DNA from: an uncultured Opitutia bacterium
GTDB lineage: Bacteria > Verrucomicrobiota > Verrucomicrobiia > Opitutales > Opitutaceae
Reading direction: 5' to 3'
Length of the DNA: 39,324 nt
NCBI GenBank assembly: GCA_903862955.1
Contig: CAIPAH010000010.1
Span: 1 to 39,324 of the forward strand
Shown here piece after piece: positions 42 to 6,998 of the stretch (positions are counted from its first letter, which is position 1; each line of letters opens with the position of its first letter). A program made the position numbers and the translations under genes. Under the pieces are notes generated by a model that worked only from the letters and a program-made list of their open reading frames with translations, was not told where the DNA came from and searched no databases.

Positions 42-116
42 GCCCTCATCGTCTATCGGTTAGGACAGGGGATTCTCAATCCTCAAAGCGGGGTTCGATT
101 CCCCGTGGGGGCACCA
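42..116 (+). tRNA. tRNA-Glu (anticodon CUC)
   Basis: The sequence folds as a full cloverleaf. The 7-bp acceptor stem pairs 42-48 with 106-112, the D arm is at 51-66, the anticodon stem-loop at 68-84 has CTC at loop positions 34-36, and the T arm at 89-105 has the TTCGATT loop. Discriminator A113 is followed by an encoded CCA (114-116). CUC reads the GAG glutamate codon. The 3' half is duplicated at 4887-4918, so the gene is the integration target of the adjacent element. The target is restored to full length by the element-side copy. Confidence 0.95.
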
Positions 117-1326
117 CTTCTAGGCTTTCCCAAGTTGGGACTGCTTTGGACAAAACAGGCGTTTCTCCTCTGAAATCCGGAGATTCGACCTTCTCGTGAG
201 GGATTCCGCTTTGGACAACGTTTCCCTCGTTCGGACTCGTATTCCCAGAATTTAGGGAAGCCAGAGAGGAAGGTAAAAGCAGCGCAAGTTTCTGCATTCC
301 GTCGTAAAGAGCATTGCTGTTCGGCCCCGTGTAGTGGTCGGTTTGCTTCCAGCTACTATGGCGCACCATTCGCACCCGGTCGCCTTCGTAAACCTTAGCC
401 ACGTCCAACAGGCTCGCGAAAGTGTGGCGTAGGGCGTGAAAATCTACCCGCCAGCCGCGTTCGTCATGCACCGGGATACCACATGCCGTCAGGTCTTTGG
501 TGAGCGTAGCGACGCTAGGAACGCCGTCAGGGAGCACCAGCCCAGTTCCGTCTCCCCAATGTGCCTTCAAAAGTTCGATAAGCAGCGGCACCGGGAAGAT
601 CGTTGCTGGCTGTTTGTTCTTCGTAGTGGCCCCGCGAATTTCCATCCAAGGGCGCGGCGCATCCAAGTGCACATCGGCCCACAGCAGGCGCTTTAACTCG
701 CCTCTCCGCAGCCCCGTAAGGGCAGCCAGAGCGTAGGCAAAGCGCCGCTTCTCGGAGTATTTTATGAGCAGCAAGAATTGCTCAACTTCAAGAGGCCGAC
801 GTTTGAAGGTTTCTTTGCCACGCGCATCCAACCGTGGAATTCTTCCGATTCGGTTTTGCGCAATTCGGTCTTGCCGCTCCAACCAGTTGAAGAAGGCCTT
901 CAAGTGACCAAGGTATTCATTGAGAGTCTTAGCGGACCTTTGGGCTTGCTGACCGCGGAGCCACTTTGCGAATGAGTCTGCCGATACGTCATGCAGCAGT
1001 TGCCAATGACAATCCGCAATCAAGCGCCTCATCCGCTGCCGGGTATGGACGATGTGATCCTTGCCATTTCCTCTTGCCTGCAGATCAGCGACGTAGTCCG
1101 CGAGGTGTTCGGCAATCGGCTTCTTTGCGGCATCCCGGAGGGGCTTCGGGTCCAGCAGCCCGGCCAATTCCTTTTCCTTTTCCTCGACAATCACCCGCGC
1201 CTTTGCCTCCGCGACTTCCTTGTTCGTTGTCTTTAGCGGCACATCATATTCGCGGGAATCGCCGTCTACGCGGTAGCGCAGGCGATACACGCGACTGCCC
1301 TTCTGTTTGAAAACACGCTTAGGCAT
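76..1326 (-). CDS. int: Tyrosine site-specific integrase (integrated form, 416 aa)
   Basis: This phage-type tyrosine recombinase should catalyse excision and integration at tRNA-Glu. An N-terminal arm-binding region (about 1-65) and a SAM-like core-binding domain (about 70-160) precede the catalytic domain. Visible active-site residues are Arg207 in TGLRRGE, His297 and Arg300 in HALRHTF, a His at 323 in RHSS, and the nucleophile Tyr332 in DHYTGP. The ATG overlaps the excisionase stop by 8 bp. The last residues (VVPPRGIEPR then FED and a stop) are encoded by the attL core and the tRNA body. The C-terminus present here is therefore created by integration. In the excised circle the frame would continue into the tail at 4686-4886 for a predicted 479 aa. 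Catalytic residues lie well upstream of the switch point, so this form may still be active. Confidence 0.93.
   Translation of the reverse strand: MPKRVFKQKGSRVYRLRYRVDGDSREYDVPLKTTNKEVAEAKARVIVEEKEKELAGLLDPKPLRDAAKKPIAEHLADYVADLQARGNGKDHIVHTRQRMRRLIADCHWQLLHDVSADSFAKWLRGQQAQRSAKTLNEYLGHLKAFFNWLERQDRIAQNRIGRIPRLDARGKETFKRRPLEVEQFLLLIKYSEKRRFAYALAALTGLRRGELKRLLWADVHLDAPRPWMEIRGATTKNKQPATIFPVPLLIELLKAHWGDGTGLVLPDGVPSVATLTKDLTACGIPVHDERGWRVDFHALRHTFASLLDVAKVYEGDRVRMVRHSSWKQTDHYTGPNSNALYDGMQKLALLLPSSLASLNSGNTSPNEGNVVQSGIPHEKVESPDFRGETPVLSKAVPTWESLEVVPPRGIEPRFED
88..119. repeat. attL core (tRNA-Glu 3' end)
   Basis: This 32-bp sequence is identical to 4887-4918 (offset 4799 bp). It covers the T arm, the acceptor 3' strand and CCA of tRNA-Glu plus three bases. 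It also encodes the last residues of the integrated form of the integrase (VVPPRGIEPR) on the minus strand. Confidence 0.92.
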
Positions 1327-1528
1327 GACTGCCCCCTTCGGTGTTAGGTCTGTTGAGGTAGACCAGTAGCACGCTTCGCCAAATCAGCCATCGCCCACCC
1401 TCTTTGAATACTTTTAGCTTACCGTCGCGGATCCGGCGATAAACCGTCTTGGGTTTGGCGTGCATTTCGTCAGCCATCTCCTGAACGTCTAGGAGACGGT
1501 CTTCGTTCTCTTGGGAATCATCTTTCAT
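1319..1528 (-). CDS. AlpA/Xis-type excisionase (MerR-like HTH)
   Basis: This 69-residue protein has the winged-helix pattern of small excisionases and AlpA regulators: a helix-turn-helix at about 12-34 (LLDVQEMADEM then KTVYRRI), a wing with DGKLKVFKEGGRW, and a terminal helix. Such proteins bend DNA at attachment sites and set recombination direction towards excision. Its start overlaps the upstream regulator's stop as ATGA, and its stop overlaps the integrase start, so the three genes are probably translationally coupled. That position next to int supports the Xis role. A pure transcriptional role is the alternative. Confidence 0.8.
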   Translation of the reverse strand: MKDDSQENEDRLLDVQEMADEMHAKPKTVYRRIRDGKLKVFKEGGRWLIWRSVLLVYLNRPNTEGGSHA

Positions 1529-1962
1529 CGCGATTGCTCCTCCTCGCCTTCGAGTGCGATGTCTTCAGCGTCAATTGCAGGCAACCGCTTTGTAGGGTCA
1601 GACTTTTCTCTGAATTCCTTCATGATTCCGTCGATGTAGTCAGAAGGCATTCCCTCCGCCTCCAACTCCGACCGGGTGAGCCTCGAAAGACGCTCGCTCT
1701 CTTGAGCGTAAAGCCTGTTGAGGTGGACATAACTAATCTCAATGTTGAATTGCCTAAGCCATTCAGCGAGGTAACGCCAACTGTGCCCTTTGTCGCGCAT
1801 GAGGTAGAGCGCACGAAAGTATGCACCGATGTTGAAAACTCGCGGCGCCTTTTCAGCCGCTGAGAGCACAGCCTTGGGAGAGGCTATCACTCCGCCTTGA
1901 CTATCACGAATGCGGGTAGTCCCAGTCGCCCCGTTCCTCTTCCGCGCGGTTTTCGATTTCAT
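1525..1962 (-). CDS. Small putative DNA-binding regulator, first gene of int operon
   Basis: This 145-residue protein has a basic N-terminus, a central segment compatible with a helix-turn-helix (GHSWRYLAEWLRQF followed by SYVHLNRLYAQE, about 59-90) and an acidic C-terminus. I do not recognise a named family with confidence. The central motif recalls small plasmid and mobile-element DNA-binding proteins. It heads the overlapping cluster regulator-xis-int. It sits directly behind a good promoter containing a palindrome, so autoregulation is a reasonable inference. The ATG lies about 8 nt from the -10 box, implying a nearly leaderless mRNA. MKS followed by a basic stretch fits a genuine start, and no upstream in-frame ATG is closer to the promoter. 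Confidence 0.7.
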   Translation of the reverse strand: MKSKTARKRNGATGTTRIRDSQGGVIASPKAVLSAAEKAPRVFNIGAYFRALYLMRDKGHSWRYLAEWLRQFNIEISYVHLNRLYAQESERLSRLTRSELEAEGMPSDYIDGIMKEFREKSDPTKRLPAIDAEDIALEGEEEQSR

Positions 1963-1969
1963 GGCACAT

Positions 1970-1999
1970 ACTGTAACGTTATGTTACGGAATGTGTCAA
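1970..1999 (-). promoter_or_regulatory. Sigma70-type promoter of the regulator-xis-int operon
   Basis: On the minus strand a perfect -35 TTGACA (1994-1999) is followed after 18 nt by TACAGT (1970-1975), a 4/6 match to the -10 consensus. The expected transcription start is near 1963, directly before the ATG at 1962. It is the only clear promoter I see inside the element. It overlaps the 3' end of the membrane-protein gene (stop at 1979-1981). Confidence 0.65.
1973..1987. promoter_or_regulatory. Candidate operator, palindrome between -35 and -10
   Basis: GTAAC-GTTAT-GTTAC is a perfect 5-5-5 inverted repeat located in the spacer of the promoter above, where a bound dimer would block RNA polymerase. 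The first gene of the operon encodes a putative DNA-binding protein, so an autorepressor is the simplest model. Alternatively Xis could bind here. Confidence 0.5.
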
Positions 2000-2983
2000 C
2001 TCTAAATATGTGCCGAATGCGGCTAAAGCGTAGAAGATTCCAACGACGATAATCAGTGCCCAATTCCAGCCTGTAAATTTCGCATTTCTGTCCCAATTTC
2101 CCTCAAGAAAAACATTCATTCGGTTCACATAAGCCTGCACCGGGACTACAAATACCCATGAGAACGCCGAAATCCAATCGACCGGTGATGCGGCCCTCCA
2201 CATCAGGCTGGACAAGATCCAACCGGCGGCAAGTCCCCCAGCTGCTAGTGACGGGCGCATTTCAACGTTGTCACCGATCTCCTTGATTCGCTTGAAGCAT
2301 GGATAACAGAAAAATACCCCGAACACTGTCCTCCAAAAGGGCCAAATATTCCCCTCACCCTGAGTTCTAATTCGCCTCCAGTTCTGATAAAACCAATAGA
2401 GCTGATAAAGGCCCAAAGAGAAAATGCACATTACGACGAATTTGAAAACAGAGACCGTAAAAAACGGACTCTGATCGTCATCATTGGACTCAGGTTCCGC
2501 ATCTGTTTCGGCGGCATGGGCACCTGATGATAAAACGGGCGGTTGTTCGATGGGATCCAATTTGCCTACTAGACTTGTCGTCACTTTAGCGTCCTCCGCA
2601 GCTGCTTCGTGAGTTGGACAAGAGAATGAGCCTGGTGTACCGATTGCCGCACTGCTCTCAGAACTATCGCTCTTCTCTTGGGCAGACCCATTTCCGGACC
2701 GATCTCCTCCACTGTTTCTCAGAGCCCAAATGAATGACCGCACAAATTGCCACACAAGGTAAGGGGCAAGAACAGCAAACCAAGTAGAGCCACAATTCCG
2801 TCCACCGAAGAGAGCTGAATAGAACTGCGACGAGTCGTACGGATTACGGAAATACGGGTTGTTGTAGTTTATTGGGTCCCACGCCTCGAAAACAAAAAGG
2901 GGGACAACCAAGATTCCTACGGTAAAGCAAAGCAGAAAAATCAACCACTCGCGCGCAAGTACCCTTCGTGTTTCCGATTTCAT
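1979..2983 (-). CDS. Multi-pass membrane protein of unknown function (element cargo)
   Basis: This 334-residue protein has a TM helix near 13-32, another near 65-88, a Ser/Gly/Glu-rich soluble linker (about 90-170), and then a C-terminal membrane domain. That domain opens with FKFVVMCIFSLGLYQLYWFY and NWRRI, a pattern reminiscent of DUF4234-like modules, and holds about four further hydrophobic segments. Its function is unknown. It is the last gene before the operon promoter in the circular order and is not needed by known rolling-circle replicons. It may be cargo, a superinfection or envelope factor, or a defence protein, but nothing in the sequence decides this. The start codon context (ttcATGg) resembles that of the 145-residue regulator. 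Confidence 0.65.
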   Translation of the reverse strand: MKSETRRVLAREWLIFLLCFTVGILVVPLFVFEAWDPINYNNPYFRNPYDSSQFYSALFGGRNCGSTWFAVLAPYLVWQFVRSFIWALRNSGGDRSGNGSAQEKSDSSESSAAIGTPGSFSCPTHEAAAEDAKVTTSLVGKLDPIEQPPVLSSGAHAAETDAEPESNDDDQSPFFTVSVFKFVVMCIFSLGLYQLYWFYQNWRRIRTQGEGNIWPFWRTVFGVFFCYPCFKRIKEIGDNVEMRPSLAAGGLAAGWILSSLMWRAASPVDWISAFSWVFVVPVQAYVNRMNVFLEGNWDRNAKFTGWNWALIIVVGIFYALAAFGTYLELTHSVT

Positions 2984-3032
2984 GGCGTCCCAGTCTTGAA
3001 GTAGTTAGTCGGCTGAAGTAATTCAGGTGAGA

Positions 3033-3326
3033 TCATTCTTTGCCCGGGTATGATTGGCATAGGTTGCTCCGGCTATTCTTAGCGATAAAGTCACCTTTGT
3101 GGGCATTGAGCCCAAAATCGTGACGGAAGAGATAAATGTGCTGCCGGCACACTCCTAACATTCGCAGCGCATTCTCCTTAATGTCTGCAAAAGAGTTATT
3201 CTTAATTATCTCGTCGTAAGCTTTGTCTGAAGTGCCTGTGACTTGATACTCTTTCTTCATCAACTCGAGGGGATACAATTCGAGTAGTCTACGGGCAATC
3301 TCGTCAGAGGCGTTGGAAAAAATCAT
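3033..3326 (-). CDS. Small hypothetical protein (97 aa)
   Basis: I do not recognise the family. The product is a soluble, mixed-charge protein, helical in its first two thirds (IARRLLELYPLELMKKEYQV) with a short basic C-terminus ending in GKE. It sits between rep and the membrane-protein gene on the same strand. It is 121 bp downstream of rep, with a hairpin in the gap, and 49 bp upstream of the membrane-protein start. Its AT-rich codon use matches the rest of the element and differs from the host. It could be a copy-number or accessory factor, but there is no direct support for this. Confidence 0.5.
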   Translation of the reverse strand: MIFSNASDEIARRLLELYPLELMKKEYQVTGTSDKAYDEIIKNNSFADIKENALRMLGVCRQHIYLFRHDFGLNAHKGDFIAKNSRSNLCQSYPGKE

Positions 3327-3410
3327 GGAGATGGGGTATGACCTAATTGGACTAGTGATGGCTGGTCGCTGCTAACACGACAGATACCGACGCCTATTTC
3401 AACGAATTGC

Positions 3411-3430
3411 TCTACCGAGATTCCGGTAGA
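3411..3430. repeat. Perfect 7-bp inverted repeat with 6-nt loop downstream of rep
   Basis: TCTACCG (3411-3417) and CGGTAGA (3424-3430) can form a hairpin with loop AGATTC, 17 bp past the rep stop codon. No T-tract follows on either strand, so a standard terminator is unlikely. A hairpin next to rep is a plausible double-strand origin or nick-site region, but this is only positional inference. Confidence 0.35.
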
Positions 3431-3447
3431 TTGCGTATTGTGTGCAT

Positions 3448-4689
3448 CTAGAACGGATTGCCATCCGGCAGCGCATTTTCCGCACCGGGATTCCACTCGG
3501 TATAAGTCGACACTCCCTTCTCACTAAAAATCGGCCTCTCCGGTCTGTGCGCGACCCCATTCACCCCATGAGAATTCGCATAGTTCCAAGTGACCTCATA
3601 GCGATAGTCCCACCCCCGGCTAGTGCCTTTCTCCTTCACCCTCAACCAGCCCCAACGAACTTCACTGAGCCCGGCACATTCGATCCATAGTGAGTCCGAC
3701 GTTTTAAAGTCAGGCGGTAGATCAATCCCGTCCATTCCTGCCAACATCGCAGCCGTGACAGTCAGGGTCTTTCGACCGTTGAAATATTTAAACGTCTCCC
3801 ACCGCTTGAGAGGTGTCCCAAAAATAATCGGGCCAAGATCGTAAGCCCATCTGCGCCCGGCTTTCTCAGCAAGTTCATCGAGGTTCTTGATTTCGTTGAG
3901 AGTGCAAAACGCTTCGACCTTTCGACGATAGAGGTAGGTCCGGGCATTCAAAAACTGAAAGTGCACCGTGAAATTATTGAGTCCCTTCGACGAGCGCACC
4001 AACCGCCGGCTCGCATCTCCCGGTGCCCTGTTAGCGAGGTTCTTCGCCACGTAACCGCCCAGATAGTAGGCGAAGGCCTGTCCAGCGACTACCGGCTCAA
4101 CCCTTGTGTAGCCGAAGCCGTAAGCCAGATGCTTGCCCTTCCCTGTCCATCGTTTCGTGTTCGCATCCCAAGAGCCAGAATCCCAGCGCTTCATTTCCGC
4201 CCTTAATGCGGCATTAGCACCCGTGCGCCAGCGAGCCTGAGCCCCACGCGTCTTTGCCTTGGCCCTTGCGGCGAAGTCATACCCAGTCCGCACGTCCTCT
4301 TTGCACGCCACGACGAGATGACCGTGGAGCCGTCCACCCTTCGACCCTCGCTCCATCACAAGCAAGTAATCCGAATACGCCTTGGACAGGCAGTGAGCCA
4401 GCAAGCCCTTAAAAGCCCTCGCCCATTGAGTGTGATCCCATGCCTCTCGCGGCGTCAGGTGGATGACCATCAGCCGGTTTACCCCGTATTTTCTTTCGAG
4501 TAGTTCCATCTTCCACGTGACCACCTGAGCCATGCGCTTTTGGTAGCCCGTTAGAAGCACGCGGCCCCTCTTCTTCTCTTCTTCCGTGTAGGTGTTACAG
4601 GATAGACAAGGATGGGCGTCAGGCCGCGCCGCGCTCCGCGCGGCGTCGGCCGGATCGCCCAAGACCGCGTCGCCTTCTGGCGCGTTCAT
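3448..4689 (-). CDS. rep: HUH-family rolling-circle replication initiator (Rep)
   Basis: The 413-residue protein shows the three motifs of HUH replication endonucleases in order: motif 1 MVIHLTP (about 74-80), motif 2 RLHGHLVV with the metal-binding pair His122 and His124, and motif 3 YLGGYVAKN with the YxxK nucleophile Tyr213 and Lys216. Such enzymes nick one strand at the origin, stay bound to the 5' end and start rolling-circle replication. The C-terminal 200 residues have no recognisable helicase motif. The ATG overlaps the stop of the upstream reading frame as ATGA, indicating translational coupling to the integrase tail. In the integrated state no promoter is obvious upstream within the element, so expression may require excision. 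A filamentous-phage-type or plasmid Rep cannot be distinguished here. Confidence 0.85.
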   Translation of the reverse strand: MNAPEGDAVLGDPADAARSAARPDAHPCLSCNTYTEEEKKRGRVLLTGYQKRMAQVVTWKMELLERKYGVNRLMVIHLTPREAWDHTQWARAFKGLLAHCLSKAYSDYLLVMERGSKGGRLHGHLVVACKEDVRTGYDFAARAKAKTRGAQARWRTGANAALRAEMKRWDSGSWDANTKRWTGKGKHLAYGFGYTRVEPVVAGQAFAYYLGGYVAKNLANRAPGDASRRLVRSSKGLNNFTVHFQFLNARTYLYRRKVEAFCTLNEIKNLDELAEKAGRRWAYDLGPIIFGTPLKRWETFKYFNGRKTLTVTAAMLAGMDGIDLPPDFKTSDSLWIECAGLSEVRWGWLRVKEKGTSRGWDYRYEVTWNYANSHGVNGVAHRPERPIFSEKGVSTYTEWNPGAENALPDGNPF

Positions 4690-4916
4690 GGAGCCCCCTT
4701 TCCGCCACCAGCGTCCACGATGGCATCAATTGCGGTCTTTAGCTCAGAGCGCAGGGACGGCCATGCAGCAACGACCTTGGCGAGTCCCGTTAGCGTCTCC
4801 CGGAATTCGAGGGAAGCCAGAGGGGAAGATCGTGCTTCCTCACTTTCGTAATACAACTCTCGCTCAACTTTTTCCCAATCTGGCTCGCGGGGTTCGATTC
4901 CCCGTGGGGGCACCAC
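4686..4916 (-). CDS. Detached integrase C-terminal tail (in-frame through attR)
   Basis: This open frame runs from the attR core into the element and stops at 4686, overlapping the rep ATG. In frame with the core (VVPPRGIEPR) it encodes 66 further residues: an acidic start (EPDWEKVERELYYE) and a helical end with WPSLRSELKTAIDAIVDAG. Joining attL and attR by excision puts it directly in frame behind integrase residue Arg413. I therefore read it as the distal exon-like part of the circular-form integrase rather than an independent gene. In the integrated state translation could only begin at GTG codons in the core. Annotation programs would probably list it as a small hypothetical protein. Confidence 0.7.
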   Translation of the reverse strand: MVPPRGIEPREPDWEKVERELYYESEEARSSPLASLEFRETLTGLAKVVAAWPSLRSELKTAIDAIVDAGGGKGAP

Positions 4917-4918
4917 TT
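4887..4918. repeat. attR core (tRNA-Glu 3' end copy)
   Basis: This is a perfect 32-bp copy of 88-119. It marks the right boundary between the element and the chromosome. Only the 3' end of the tRNA is duplicated, as expected for tyrosine-recombinase insertion into a tRNA gene. On the minus strand it lies in frame with the integrase tail ORF that begins immediately inside the element. Confidence 0.92.
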
Positions 4919-5155
4919 TTCCGAGGCTTCAGAGGTCATCCGAGGCCGGGTCAAAGACGAAACTGGCAAATGGTGTAGAGCGTTGCTCCGCCAAGCCCTG
5001 GAGGCCAGTTGGGCACGGAACGCGCGCGGTAGGGTTTTACCTTATCGCTATTTCGCCACAGGTGGTGTTAATTCACTCCAGACGGTTGTTCGCCAAGTGA
5101 CGATACCCTGCCGTGCAACCGATTTGAGACCGGCGGCCGCGTGGACGATCCCGCG
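4919..5155. other. Gap between attR and the histidine kinase gene
   Basis: These 237 bp hold no convincing gene. They probably contain the promoter of the kinase/regulator operon, but I cannot point to clear -35 and -10 boxes. Any transcript reading leftwards from here would be needed to express rep in the integrated state. Confidence 0.4.
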
Positions 5156-6310
5156 ATGGGAAAACAACACGAACACGTAATGAAAGTAATGAACCCGGTC
5201 CTCGCACAACGCTACCTGAAGGGTCTTCGCGCCCATCTCCGCCTGAATGGCCGGGGCAATGGCGACGGGGCCCAAGGCTTGGGCCGCGCCGCCTTGGCCG
5301 CCGGCATGGCCCCGGTGGACCTGGCCGTCATGCACGAGAAGGCCCTCGCCGCCATCGCGGTGTCACAGGACTTCTCCAAAAACCGCGCCGAATGGTTCAA
5401 ACGCAAGGCGTACTTCTTTACCCAGGCACTTATCCCGCTGGAGGCCGCCCAGGAAGCCGCGCGGAGGAGCCATTCGAATCTGCAGCAACGCAACTCGACG
5501 CTGCGCTTGCACACCTTGGCCTTGGCCAGTGCCAACCGCCGCCTGCAGAGCGAGGTCGTGCGCCGCAAGGCCGGCGAACAGCAAATCCGCAAGGGCAAGG
5601 AGCACTATCGGACACTGTTCCTCGAATCGCAGGCCATGCAAAAGAAGCTCCGCAAGCTCACCCACCAGATCATCTCTGCACAGGAGGACGAGCGGAAGGA
5701 AATCAGTCGTGAGCTGCATGACGAGGTCGTGCAAACCTTGGTCGGCATCAATGTCGAACTGGCCGGCCTGGGGCGGGGCGCCGCGGTCGGCGTGCGGACG
5801 CTGAAGGCGAAGATCGCCCACACCCAGAAGTTGGTGGAAAATTCCGTCAATGCCGTGCACCAGTTCGCCCGCGAGCTGCGGCCGGCCGTGCTCGACGATC
5901 TCGGGCTGATTCCCGCGCTCGTCGCCTACAGCAAGAGCCTCGCGGCGCGCAAACGGCTCAAGATCCAGATGACCGCGTTCGGGGGCGTCGAGGCCCTCGG
6001 AGCCGTCAAACGCACCGTGCTGTTCCGCGTGGCGCAAGAGGCGCTGACCAACGTCGCCCGCCATGCGCATGCGACCGTCGTCAAGCTGAGCATCAGCGAG
6101 GTTGCCGGGGCGGTCCGGATGGAAATCAGCGACAACGGCAAATCCTTCCACGTGAGGAATACCCTGCTGGCTAAGAACAACAAGCGCCTGGGGCTGGTCG
6201 GCATGCGCGAGCGGATCGAGATGGTGGGCGGCAGCCTGGCCATTGAGTCCGCCCCGGGCACGGGCACGACCGTGCGGGCCGAAATTCCTTTCACCGAATC
6301 CAAAGCCTAA
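5156..6310 (+). CDS. Soluble sensor histidine kinase (HisKA_3/DxxQ type)
   Basis: This cytoplasmic two-component kinase has no membrane segment. The N-terminal ~90 residues (YLKGLRAHLR, then GLGRAALAAGMAPVDLAVMH) resemble the helical N-terminal domain of RsbU-type phosphatases. A coiled-coil region follows (about 95-170). The dimerisation and phosphoacceptor helix carries RELHDEVVQTL with the phosphorylated His near residue 188. A HATPase_c domain follows, with an N-box (EALTNVARHA), a G1 box (EISDNGKSF) and a G2 region (GLVGMRERIEMVGG). ATG 5156 is chosen; GTG 5141 and ATG 5180 are alternatives and none has a clear Shine-Dalgarno. The stop is 1 bp before its response regulator. The signal may reach it through a partner protein, by analogy with RsbU, but this is inference. 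Confidence 0.9.
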   Translation: MGKQHEHVMKVMNPVLAQRYLKGLRAHLRLNGRGNGDGAQGLGRAALAAGMAPVDLAVMHEKALAAIAVSQDFSKNRAEWFKRKAYFFTQALIPLEAAQEAARRSHSNLQQRNSTLRLHTLALASANRRLQSEVVRRKAGEQQIRKGKEHYRTLFLESQAMQKKLRKLTHQIISAQEDERKEISRELHDEVVQTLVGINVELAGLGRGAAVGVRTLKAKIAHTQKLVENSVNAVHQFARELRPAVLDDLGLIPALVAYSKSLAARKRLKIQMTAFGGVEALGAVKRTVLFRVAQEALTNVARHAHATVVKLSISEVAGAVRMEISDNGKSFHVRNTLLAKNNKRLGLVGMRERIEMVGGSLAIESAPGTGTTVRAEIPFTESKA

Positions 6311-6311
6311 C

Positions 6312-6998
6312 ATGACGCCTTCAAAACCCATCACCGTCCTGCTGGCCGAGGATCACGCCATTGTCCGCCAAGGCTTGTGCGCGCTGTTGAACGTGGACGG
6401 GGATTTTCAAATCGTCGCCGAAGCCCGCACCGGGCGCGAGGCGGTGGAGCTGGTGAAAACCTGCCATCCCGACGTCATCCTCATGGACATCGCCATGCCG
6501 GTGCTCAACGGCCTGGAGGCCACCCGGCAGATCCTGGCCGACAACCCGGCCGCCAAGGTGGTCATCCTTTCCGCGCACAGCGACGACGTCTATGTCGAGC
6601 GCATGAACGAGGCTGGCGTCGCCGGCTTCATCGAGAAACAGACTTCAGCAGAGATCCTGACCAAGGCGATCCGCGAGGTGGCCAAAGGGGGCAGGTATTT
6701 CAGCCCCGCCATCGTCAAGCGCCACCTCCACGATCCCGGCAACTTGCTCAAGCGCGACGGATCGCCCAGAACCAACGGCCTCCACCTGACGTCCCGCGAA
6801 TCGGAGGTGCTACAACTCGTGGCCGAAGGCTCGGCCAACAAGCAGGTCGCGTCAGCGCTGGGTATCAGCATCAAGACGGTTGAGAAGCACCGGCAGCATC
6901 TCATGGACAAGCTCAACATCCACGACACTGCCGGCCTCACCCTGTACGCGATTTCTGCCGGGGTCATCGAGAGCAATGTCCAGCTGACCATCATCTAA
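6312..6998 (+). CDS. NarL/FixJ-family response regulator
   Basis: This 228-residue regulator has a receiver domain (about 8-122) with the acidic pocket AEDH and the phosphoacceptor Asp59 in LMDIAMP. A C-terminal LuxR-type helix-turn-helix (about 158-205) contains LTSRESEVLQL and SIKTVEKHRQHLMDKL. The ATG lies 1 bp after the stop of the histidine kinase, so the two form an operon and a cognate pair. Targets are unknown. The envelope-stress-like genes immediately downstream (triple-BON protein and small membrane proteins) are obvious candidates. Confidence 0.93.
   Translation: MTPSKPITVLLAEDHAIVRQGLCALLNVDGDFQIVAEARTGREAVELVKTCHPDVILMDIAMPVLNGLEATRQILADNPAAKVVILSAHSDDVYVERMNEAGVAGFIEKQTSAEILTKAIREVAKGGRYFSPAIVKRHLHDPGNLLKRDGSPRTNGLHLTSRESEVLQLVAEGSANKQVASALGISIKTVEKHRQHLMDKLNIHDTAGLTLYAISAGVIESNVQLTII

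Follow-up and report, generated by a model that had tools for sequence, protein, structure and literature searches.

What becomes of an integrase gene when the site at which its element recombines lies inside the gene's own reading frame? The question is raised by a 4.8-kb mobile element at positions 76-4918 of a 39,324-nucleotide stretch of DNA from a Verrucomicrobiota genome (contig CAIPAH010000010.1 of an uncultured Opitutia bacterium), the whole of which is referred to here as the window. The element is inserted in a tRNA-Glu gene, and its main open reading frames (ORFs) all lie on the minus strand. The answer proposed is that integration probably removes a conserved domain from the integrase and also cuts the replication initiator gene, rep, from the integrase (int) operon, and that excision restores both. 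The features on which this reading depends are as follows.

42-116, plus strand: host tRNA-Glu(CTC) gene (ARAGORN), the integration target, whose 3' part serves as the left attachment (att) core
76-1326, minus strand: int, tyrosine integrase, 416 amino acids (aa) in its integrated form (PF00589, 1.1e-6)
88-119, no strand assigned: att core, int side, 32/32 bp identical to 4887-4918
254-272, minus strand: int-side putative arm-type site for the integrase, within the int ORF; direct repeat with 4810-4828
3448-4689, minus strand: rep, a rolling-circle-type replication initiator with about 30% identity to small-plasmid proteins and a weak match to PF23343
4686-4886, minus strand: tail, 66 codons plus stop, in frame with int only in the excised circle; its stop overlaps the rep start (ATGA)
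4810-4828, minus strand: tail-side putative arm-type site for the integrase, within the tail ORF; direct repeat with 254-272
4887-4918, no strand assigned: att core, rep side (attR); 32-bp identity with 88-119

An initial annotation of this DNA had placed the 32-bp att core inside the int frame, and this placement holds. In the integrated element int ends in GIEPR-FED within the tRNA, its last three codons being host tRNA sequence. On the rep side the same frame runs past the core for 66 codons to a stop at 4686-4688, and the predicted circle-form integrase is 413 + 66 = 479 aa long, as had been claimed. This stop belongs to an ATGA at 4689 whose ATG is the rep start, an overlap that the initial annotation did not mention, nor did it mention the arm-type repeats. 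A frame match alone would arise by chance about 1 time in 3, and a 66-codon opening more rarely; it is the comparative tests that settle the matter, because the tail has homologues in other elements, the frames agree in 31/31 pairs, and the homologues evolve as protein does (553/561 comparisons, below).

The proposed mechanism begins in the circle. There, int would read through attP, the attachment site of the element, into the conserved tail, whose stop overlaps the rep start, so that int, tail and rep would form one translational chain; orf145 and an excisionase-like gene, also overlapping, would precede it. Integration would swap the tail for a handful of residues encoded on the antisense strand of the host tRNA gene, giving a catalytically complete, tail-less integrase, and would strand tail and rep at the other end with no int operon in front of them. 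Excision would restore the tail to the integrase and rep to its place behind the int operon. Most likely, attP x attB integration would be favoured by the tail-bearing form, and excision would be carried out by the tail-less form together with the excisionase-like protein. The operon junction would limit strong rep production to the circle, shielding the chromosome from rolling-circle initiation. Circle formation, tail-altered integrase behaviour and circle-only strong rep production are steps that we infer.

The frame relationship can be followed in relatives. Twenty regions around reps and ints and 60 around tails were fetched, giving 74 tail ORFs with that of the window. Frames were compared at the tRNA T-loop; the crossover was assigned to this point since, on the acceptor side, the copy present at attR is host DNA that has been displaced. 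With this anchor, int and tail share a frame in 31/31 pairs in which int, tail, tRNA and core are all in view; two of these pairs come from one tandem locus, and two (L039 and L104) have broken ints. The int ORF extends to the core in 36/36 elements, five of them located through rep, and in those five an in-frame read-through of 36-97 codons continues beyond the anchor up to the rep start. Anchoring on exact repeats, as was done before the T-loop was adopted, gave only 26/31 frame matches. In three of the five misses (L033, L104 and L119) the displaced acceptor/T-stem copy at attR, a segment that lies outside the circle, differs in length; in L039 int is split by a frameshift and the second fragment, as it stands, is the in-frame one; and in L138 the int had been taken from the neighbouring tandem element.

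Further pairs behave in the same way. Extension of 12 more tail loci downstream yielded four pairs, all in frame (4/4), and no int-tail pair in the other 8/12; among the four is a second split pair from the window's own genome (G000:C14, 24.7-61.3 kb; L259 and L260), which sits at a tRNA-Asn with its parts about 36 kb apart. One element in which no tRNA was detected (L147) is in frame as well. In named genomes, where no tail profile was used, 11/11 real pairs open 59-114 codons in the int frame, with a tail motif recognizable by eye; 4/11 are elements already counted and 7/11 are new, six from Planctomycetota (L185 of Planctomycetales ZRK34, L186, L197, L198, L217 and L236) and one, L184, from a record titled Akkermansia. 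L197 and L198 also have a slightly longer opening, of 63 codons, in a different frame. For 33/48 named-genome ints no repeat was found in the fetched flank, and among the 15 with repeats, L190, L195, L230 and L237 were excluded as self-matches at distance 0. Two planctomycete integrases of this type (L214 and L218) have ORFs running into a predicted tRNA-SeC gene.

These counts bear directly on the simplest explanation, in which an open antisense tRNA is fortuitous and the frames agree by coincidence. Antisense T-arms are indeed used in all three frames, and one decayed pair, L115, is out of frame; it is the single instance found of the frame-shifting junction that the initial annotation had named as a refutation. 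The use of all frames, however, predicts frequent mismatches. The tRNA codon phases used by the elements are divided 18/13/2 of 33, and vary even among tRNA-Ser elements, so the tRNA does not itself impose the match. Random pairing of ints and tails from the observed phases would match in about 46% of cases, as against the 31/31 seen, a result of order 1e-11 when relatedness is not corrected for. At the tandem locus L138 (G357:C1), two elements share one tRNA-Asn; int A has the phase of tail A and int B that of tail B, but the two phases differ, so A and B would not fuse. Coincidence is thus already refuted as an account of the layout.

The tail itself is the second line of evidence. With its 66 residues as query, homologues adjoining rep were found at five other loci. 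A nine-row tail profile (A1) matches in 61/252 genomes of the family and 62/384 of the class at E<=0.01, the two sets overlapping; the profile is mildly circular, in that three of its nine tails (L029, L037 and L039) were first read in frame and the others came from similarity to the window tail. The matches fall mostly in short ORFs, and most of those inspected carry an antisense T-arm motif (GFEPxR, GIRTHP) before the tail. Synonymous divergence exceeds nonsynonymous (pS > pN) in the tail motif in 553/561 comparable pairs, many of them near synonymous saturation. In the tail alignment A4, row L188 fails to align as a tail. An AlphaFold2 model, built from a 15-row alignment with one bad row, predicts helices at residues 26-44 and 47-60, with the first 25 residues poorly ordered; pLDDT in 10-residue blocks is 89-96 over residues 31-60, with a mean of 73 for the whole model and a pTM of 0.43. 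The typical layout is a short linker bearing the arm site, followed by a two-helix hairpin with the motif WPxL...LRAAI. The tail had been said to look like real protein; on the evidence of its relatives and of the model it is a genuine protein under purifying selection, predicted to form a helical hairpin. The expectation that integrated and circular integrases would differ at the C-terminus holds for the predicted products, and the layout recurs in dozens of elements. One locus, L125 (G451:C5, oriented 395-779), has two consecutive tails, the first with a clear antisense-tRNA-like start, and is possibly a relic of repeated insertions.

What remains of the integrase after integration matters as much as what is lost. 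In a 15-row alignment the invariant residues R207, H297, R300, H323 and Y332, which we take to be the catalytic R, H-R, H and Y of tyrosine recombinases, all lie before the core. The match to PF00589 is above the cut-off and identifies int as a tyrosine recombinase; the int profile also matches XerC-like, XerA and XerD chains in the PDB. These observations weigh on the proposal of a suicidal integrase like that of SSV1, in which the tail-less form would be inactive and integration would be locked until full-length integrase came from a circle, a tandem or a second element. As in SSV-type integrases, according to an archaeal review (PMC8371274), attP lies inside int and the gene is altered by integration, and the window's genome does hold the second int/tail pair on C14, and on C22 a truncated int that reads into a tRNA-Ser. 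In SSV-type systems, though, integration splits off the catalytic domain, which here is unsplit; the Pfam scan at E <= 0.1 returned PF00589 and not PF16795 (Phage_integr_3); an excisionase-like gene is present; and at the tandem L138 the differing phases leave no fused int. A suicidal integrase is therefore improbable, and the parallel with SSV1 drawn in the initial annotation is a poorer fit than Mx8.

The same completeness can be turned into an argument that there is no switch at all. Perhaps attP overlaps int because the element is small, and the tail is an old C-terminus whose loss has little effect. The tail-less int retains every invariant catalytic residue, the genes are compact and overlapping, and the int on C9 of the window's genome ends before its tRNA. 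An ancestral domain might also be expected to survive unbroken somewhere. The initial annotation had suggested a search for integrases with both parts; no single ORF carrying int and tail was found in 81 sequences, and among 90 loci there is one weak case, L206 (E 0.004-0.04), as this explanation would expect. L206, on the plus strand at 1766-3175, is a Phycisphaerae integrase whose catalytic domain is followed directly by a tail-like C-terminus and at whose end no tRNA was detected; it is a possible unbroken ancestral form. Economy fares less well elsewhere. Lack of space does not explain the layout, since it is also found in elements of about 20-37 kb; the junction has stayed in frame where drift could have disrupted it; and the Mx8 integrase is reported to alter its specificity when integration gives it a new 3' end (PMC6070905). 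Taken together, these points make economy alone an unlikely explanation, if one with a real claim to attention.

The region around the core adds a third line of evidence for a tail exchange built into attP. Arm-like repeats of about 18-38 nt occur in 31/36 elements, one copy 145-178 nt ahead of the core anchor and the other 48-83 nt beyond it, the threshold being a score above all 20 codon shuffles. They differ between elements and agree within one: own pairs have a mean score of 18.1, compared with 7.2 for other pairs, and 0/2000 permutations are as high. An element's own tail is the strict best partner in 23/36 elements, close relatives sharing sites. Two elements outside the tRNA-anchored set, L114 and L120, were matched by arm repeats only. 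Many repeats consist of two 8-bp units about 12 bp apart, which we read as what would be expected of putative arm-type sites. Since such repeats lie on both sides of the core within the ORF, the whole of attP (int-side arm, T-loop core and tail-side arm) would be coding sequence in the 3' part of int. The tail-side repeat mostly lies at one of two distances from the core, about +77 or about +56 nt; the 21 nt by which they differ correspond to seven codons and equally to two helical turns, and would keep both frame and helical phase.

The second half of the proposal concerns rep. In 26 cases a tail is followed by a match to the rep profile (5/26 having been located through rep); the exact 4-nt overlap is seen in 14/26, and 25/26 fall within -26 to +17 nt. 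An unmatched control, all long stop-to-stop ORFs, gives the 4-nt overlap in 266/2304. From 24 other tails with a nearby ORF, ten next genes were picked for testing, and 7/10 match REP_ORF2-G2P or Rep_1 at E<=0.01 (L147, L156, L123, L162, L140, L134 and L136), those of L156, L162 and L136 above the curated cut-off; the next genes of L107, L116 and L127 have no Rep-family match. The window rep is itself below the gathering cut-off of PF23343 (REP_ORF2-G2P; 22.2 vs 27.8 bits), which the next genes of L162 and L136 exceed. A tblastn search with rep finds 26 plasmid records, the 20 listed being at 28-35% identity and some annotated 'phasyl DNA replicon protein arp', an indication that rep is an Arp-like initiator of the phasyl type; there is no match in phage records or viral contigs. 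Four elements with diverged tails (L027, L028, L030 and L045) keep the in-frame run into rep, which suggests from their sequences that int-rep coupling may be selected in its own right. Elements such as L111 and L117 have the tail motif and no coupled gene, and suggest that the tail too may be so selected.

Two loci show unusual junctions. L119 (G171:C23, minus strand, oriented 457-1911) is a 1.38-kb element between att cores consisting almost only of int, whose N-terminus resembles a deletion fusion; its tail stop overlaps its own int start codon (ATGA), and its circle would be essentially one gene. In the other, L160 (minus strand of G257:C47, oriented 534-2073), a single 513-aa ORF covers tail and rep, so that int and rep would be fused in the product of a circle; no int turned up in those parts of the contig that were fetched.

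A further proposal is that the integrated element expresses the tail on its own, from a start near the core, either as a small protein or as a leader for rep. Some tail ORFs have an ATG or GTG there, such as the GTG at 4914-4916 in the window. Yet what lies upstream is tRNA and host sequence that vary by element, which makes a conserved start signal unlikely, and the match to the int frame would be left unexplained; we regard a separately made tail as very improbable. No sigma-70-like site in front of the tail on the minus strand is listed in a promoter scan of the element that is itself at chance level.

Several observations weigh against the reading that integration exchanges the tail and uncouples rep. 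Only the integrated form has been seen, the circle form being predicted from sequence. The layout is not universal: the L120 int stops at a distance of 95 nt from the end of its contig, where no core is visible, and the C9 int has a TAA stop just before a tRNA-Pro. These, with 3/48 named-genome ints near an antisense tRNA (L212, L222 and L243) that stop short of the adjoining tRNA, are cases of the other refuting outcome foreseen in the initial annotation, an int that ends before the core. The out-of-frame pair L115 is decayed, with a broken int and no tRNA found. A clear WP motif is missing from the tails of L027, L028, L030 and L045, and 27/77 tails lack both a rep match and any 80-aa ORF close to their stop. 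The rep ATG of the window is preceded by a Shine-Dalgarno-like GGGGG, so rep need not depend on coupling; the promoter scan found 3 sites against 2.8 expected; and the best partner of the window's arm repeat is the tail of another element, by one point (17 vs 16). Judged on sequence, the att-in-int layout is nevertheless real, conserved and widespread, and it is likely to be a built-in "inside or outside the chromosome" switch shared by many related elements.

Contigs in natural circular form were sought by terminal overlap, which was present in 0/14 contigs <8 kb in one set and 0/5 in another. The genus yielded no empty site: the best-matching homologue of the right flank has a tRNA-Leu nearby and nothing that matches the left flank. 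The remaining features of the element are these.

1319-1528, minus strand: excisionase-like HTH_17 protein (xis-like), with an 8-nt overlap with the int start
1525-1962, minus strand: orf145, a 145-aa protein without a family match, with a 4-nt overlap (ATGA) with the xis-like gene
1970-1999, minus strand: sigma-70-like promoter upstream of orf145-xis-int, matching 10/12 consensus positions in a scan that is overall at chance level
1979-2983, minus strand: 334-aa protein with no family match above the cut-off
3033-3326, minus strand: 97-aa ORF without a family match

In window coordinates, orf145, the xis-like gene and int thus follow one another with successive overlapping starts and stops. 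In the right flank (5141-6998), ORFs resemble, by eye, a sensor histidine kinase and a LuxR-type response regulator.

The principle of an att site within a gene is known, most closely from phage Mx8. A myxophage review (PMC6070905) describes for Mx8 an attP within int and an integration that makes a new int 3' end, alters specificity without inactivation and acts as a molecular switch; a paper on Islander cites Mx8 and SSV as cases in which the integrase runs across attP (PMC4383910). The window element shares with Mx8 a tyrosine recombinase, an attP in its coding sequence and a new int 3' end on integration, and in the Mx8 record AF396866 about 115 codons separate the int stop from a stretch, STGLEP, that resembles an antisense T-loop. 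In sequence there is hardly any kinship: the Mx8 integrase is barely related (10.6 bits for the best domain in the int profile, 23 bits in BLASTP) and has no match to the tail profiles, and Mx8 is a 49.5-kb phage in which the next gene lies 47 nt after int, with no rep coupling seen. SSV1, pTN3 and pT26-2 likewise are described as having attP in int and a gene changed by integration, but there an N-terminal part is split from the catalytic part, whereas here a C-terminal tail is exchanged.

In other systems the interrupted gene is not an integrase. In the integration-dependent immunity of mycobacteriophages (BPs and others), as described in two sources (PMC9262239, PMC8092301), attP lies in the repressor gene, the target is a tRNA and the viral and prophage C-termini differ; here the gene is int, with arm-type repeats in the ORF. 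ORF13 of phiRSS0 contains attP and is described as shortened by integration (PMC3816273), but that integration is of the dif/XerCD kind and ORF13 is a possible regulator. The small plasmids annotated with 'phasyl DNA replicon protein arp' have a related initiator (about 30% identity), in records of 0.7-2.3 kb among the 20 listed, and no int match was found in the plasmid collection. Nor was any int match found in phage or plasmid records; viral contigs hold 10 distant int relatives, 0/10 with a tail match. A literature search found no description of this int-tail-rep family, subscription papers and preprints being mostly outside its coverage; the family, the arm sites within the ORF and the int-rep coupling appear to be new.

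These elements touch on two general questions: how an integrase chooses between insertion and excision, and how integrated replicons restrain a rolling-circle initiator in the chromosome. A bacterial att-in-int family runs counter to the statement, in the archaeal review, that self-disrupting recombinases are exclusively archaeal (PMC8371274). It also suggests that an arm-bearing attP can be coding; the mycobacteriophage review (PMC9262239) regards arm-type sites as unnecessary there and an attP of lambda size as severely constraining. Short ORFs at attR that start with antisense T-arm residues (GFEPxR, GIRTHP) merit annotation as integrase tails, and the genomes with tail matches (61/252 and 62/384), with the reach into Planctomycetota, offer natural replicates. 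If the reading is correct, one recombination event sets both the form of the integrase and the coupling of rep, and the two protein forms differ only in the tail. It is perhaps an even question whether these Verrucomicrobiota and Planctomycetota elements go further and use attP as a logic gate at the level of DNA, in which excision would add a domain to the integrase and join rep to the int operon. Replication would then be licensed only in the circle, the direction of the enzyme would be set by its own location, and an arm-bearing attP would be written in codons under three constraints: integrase binding, tRNA repair and protein function.

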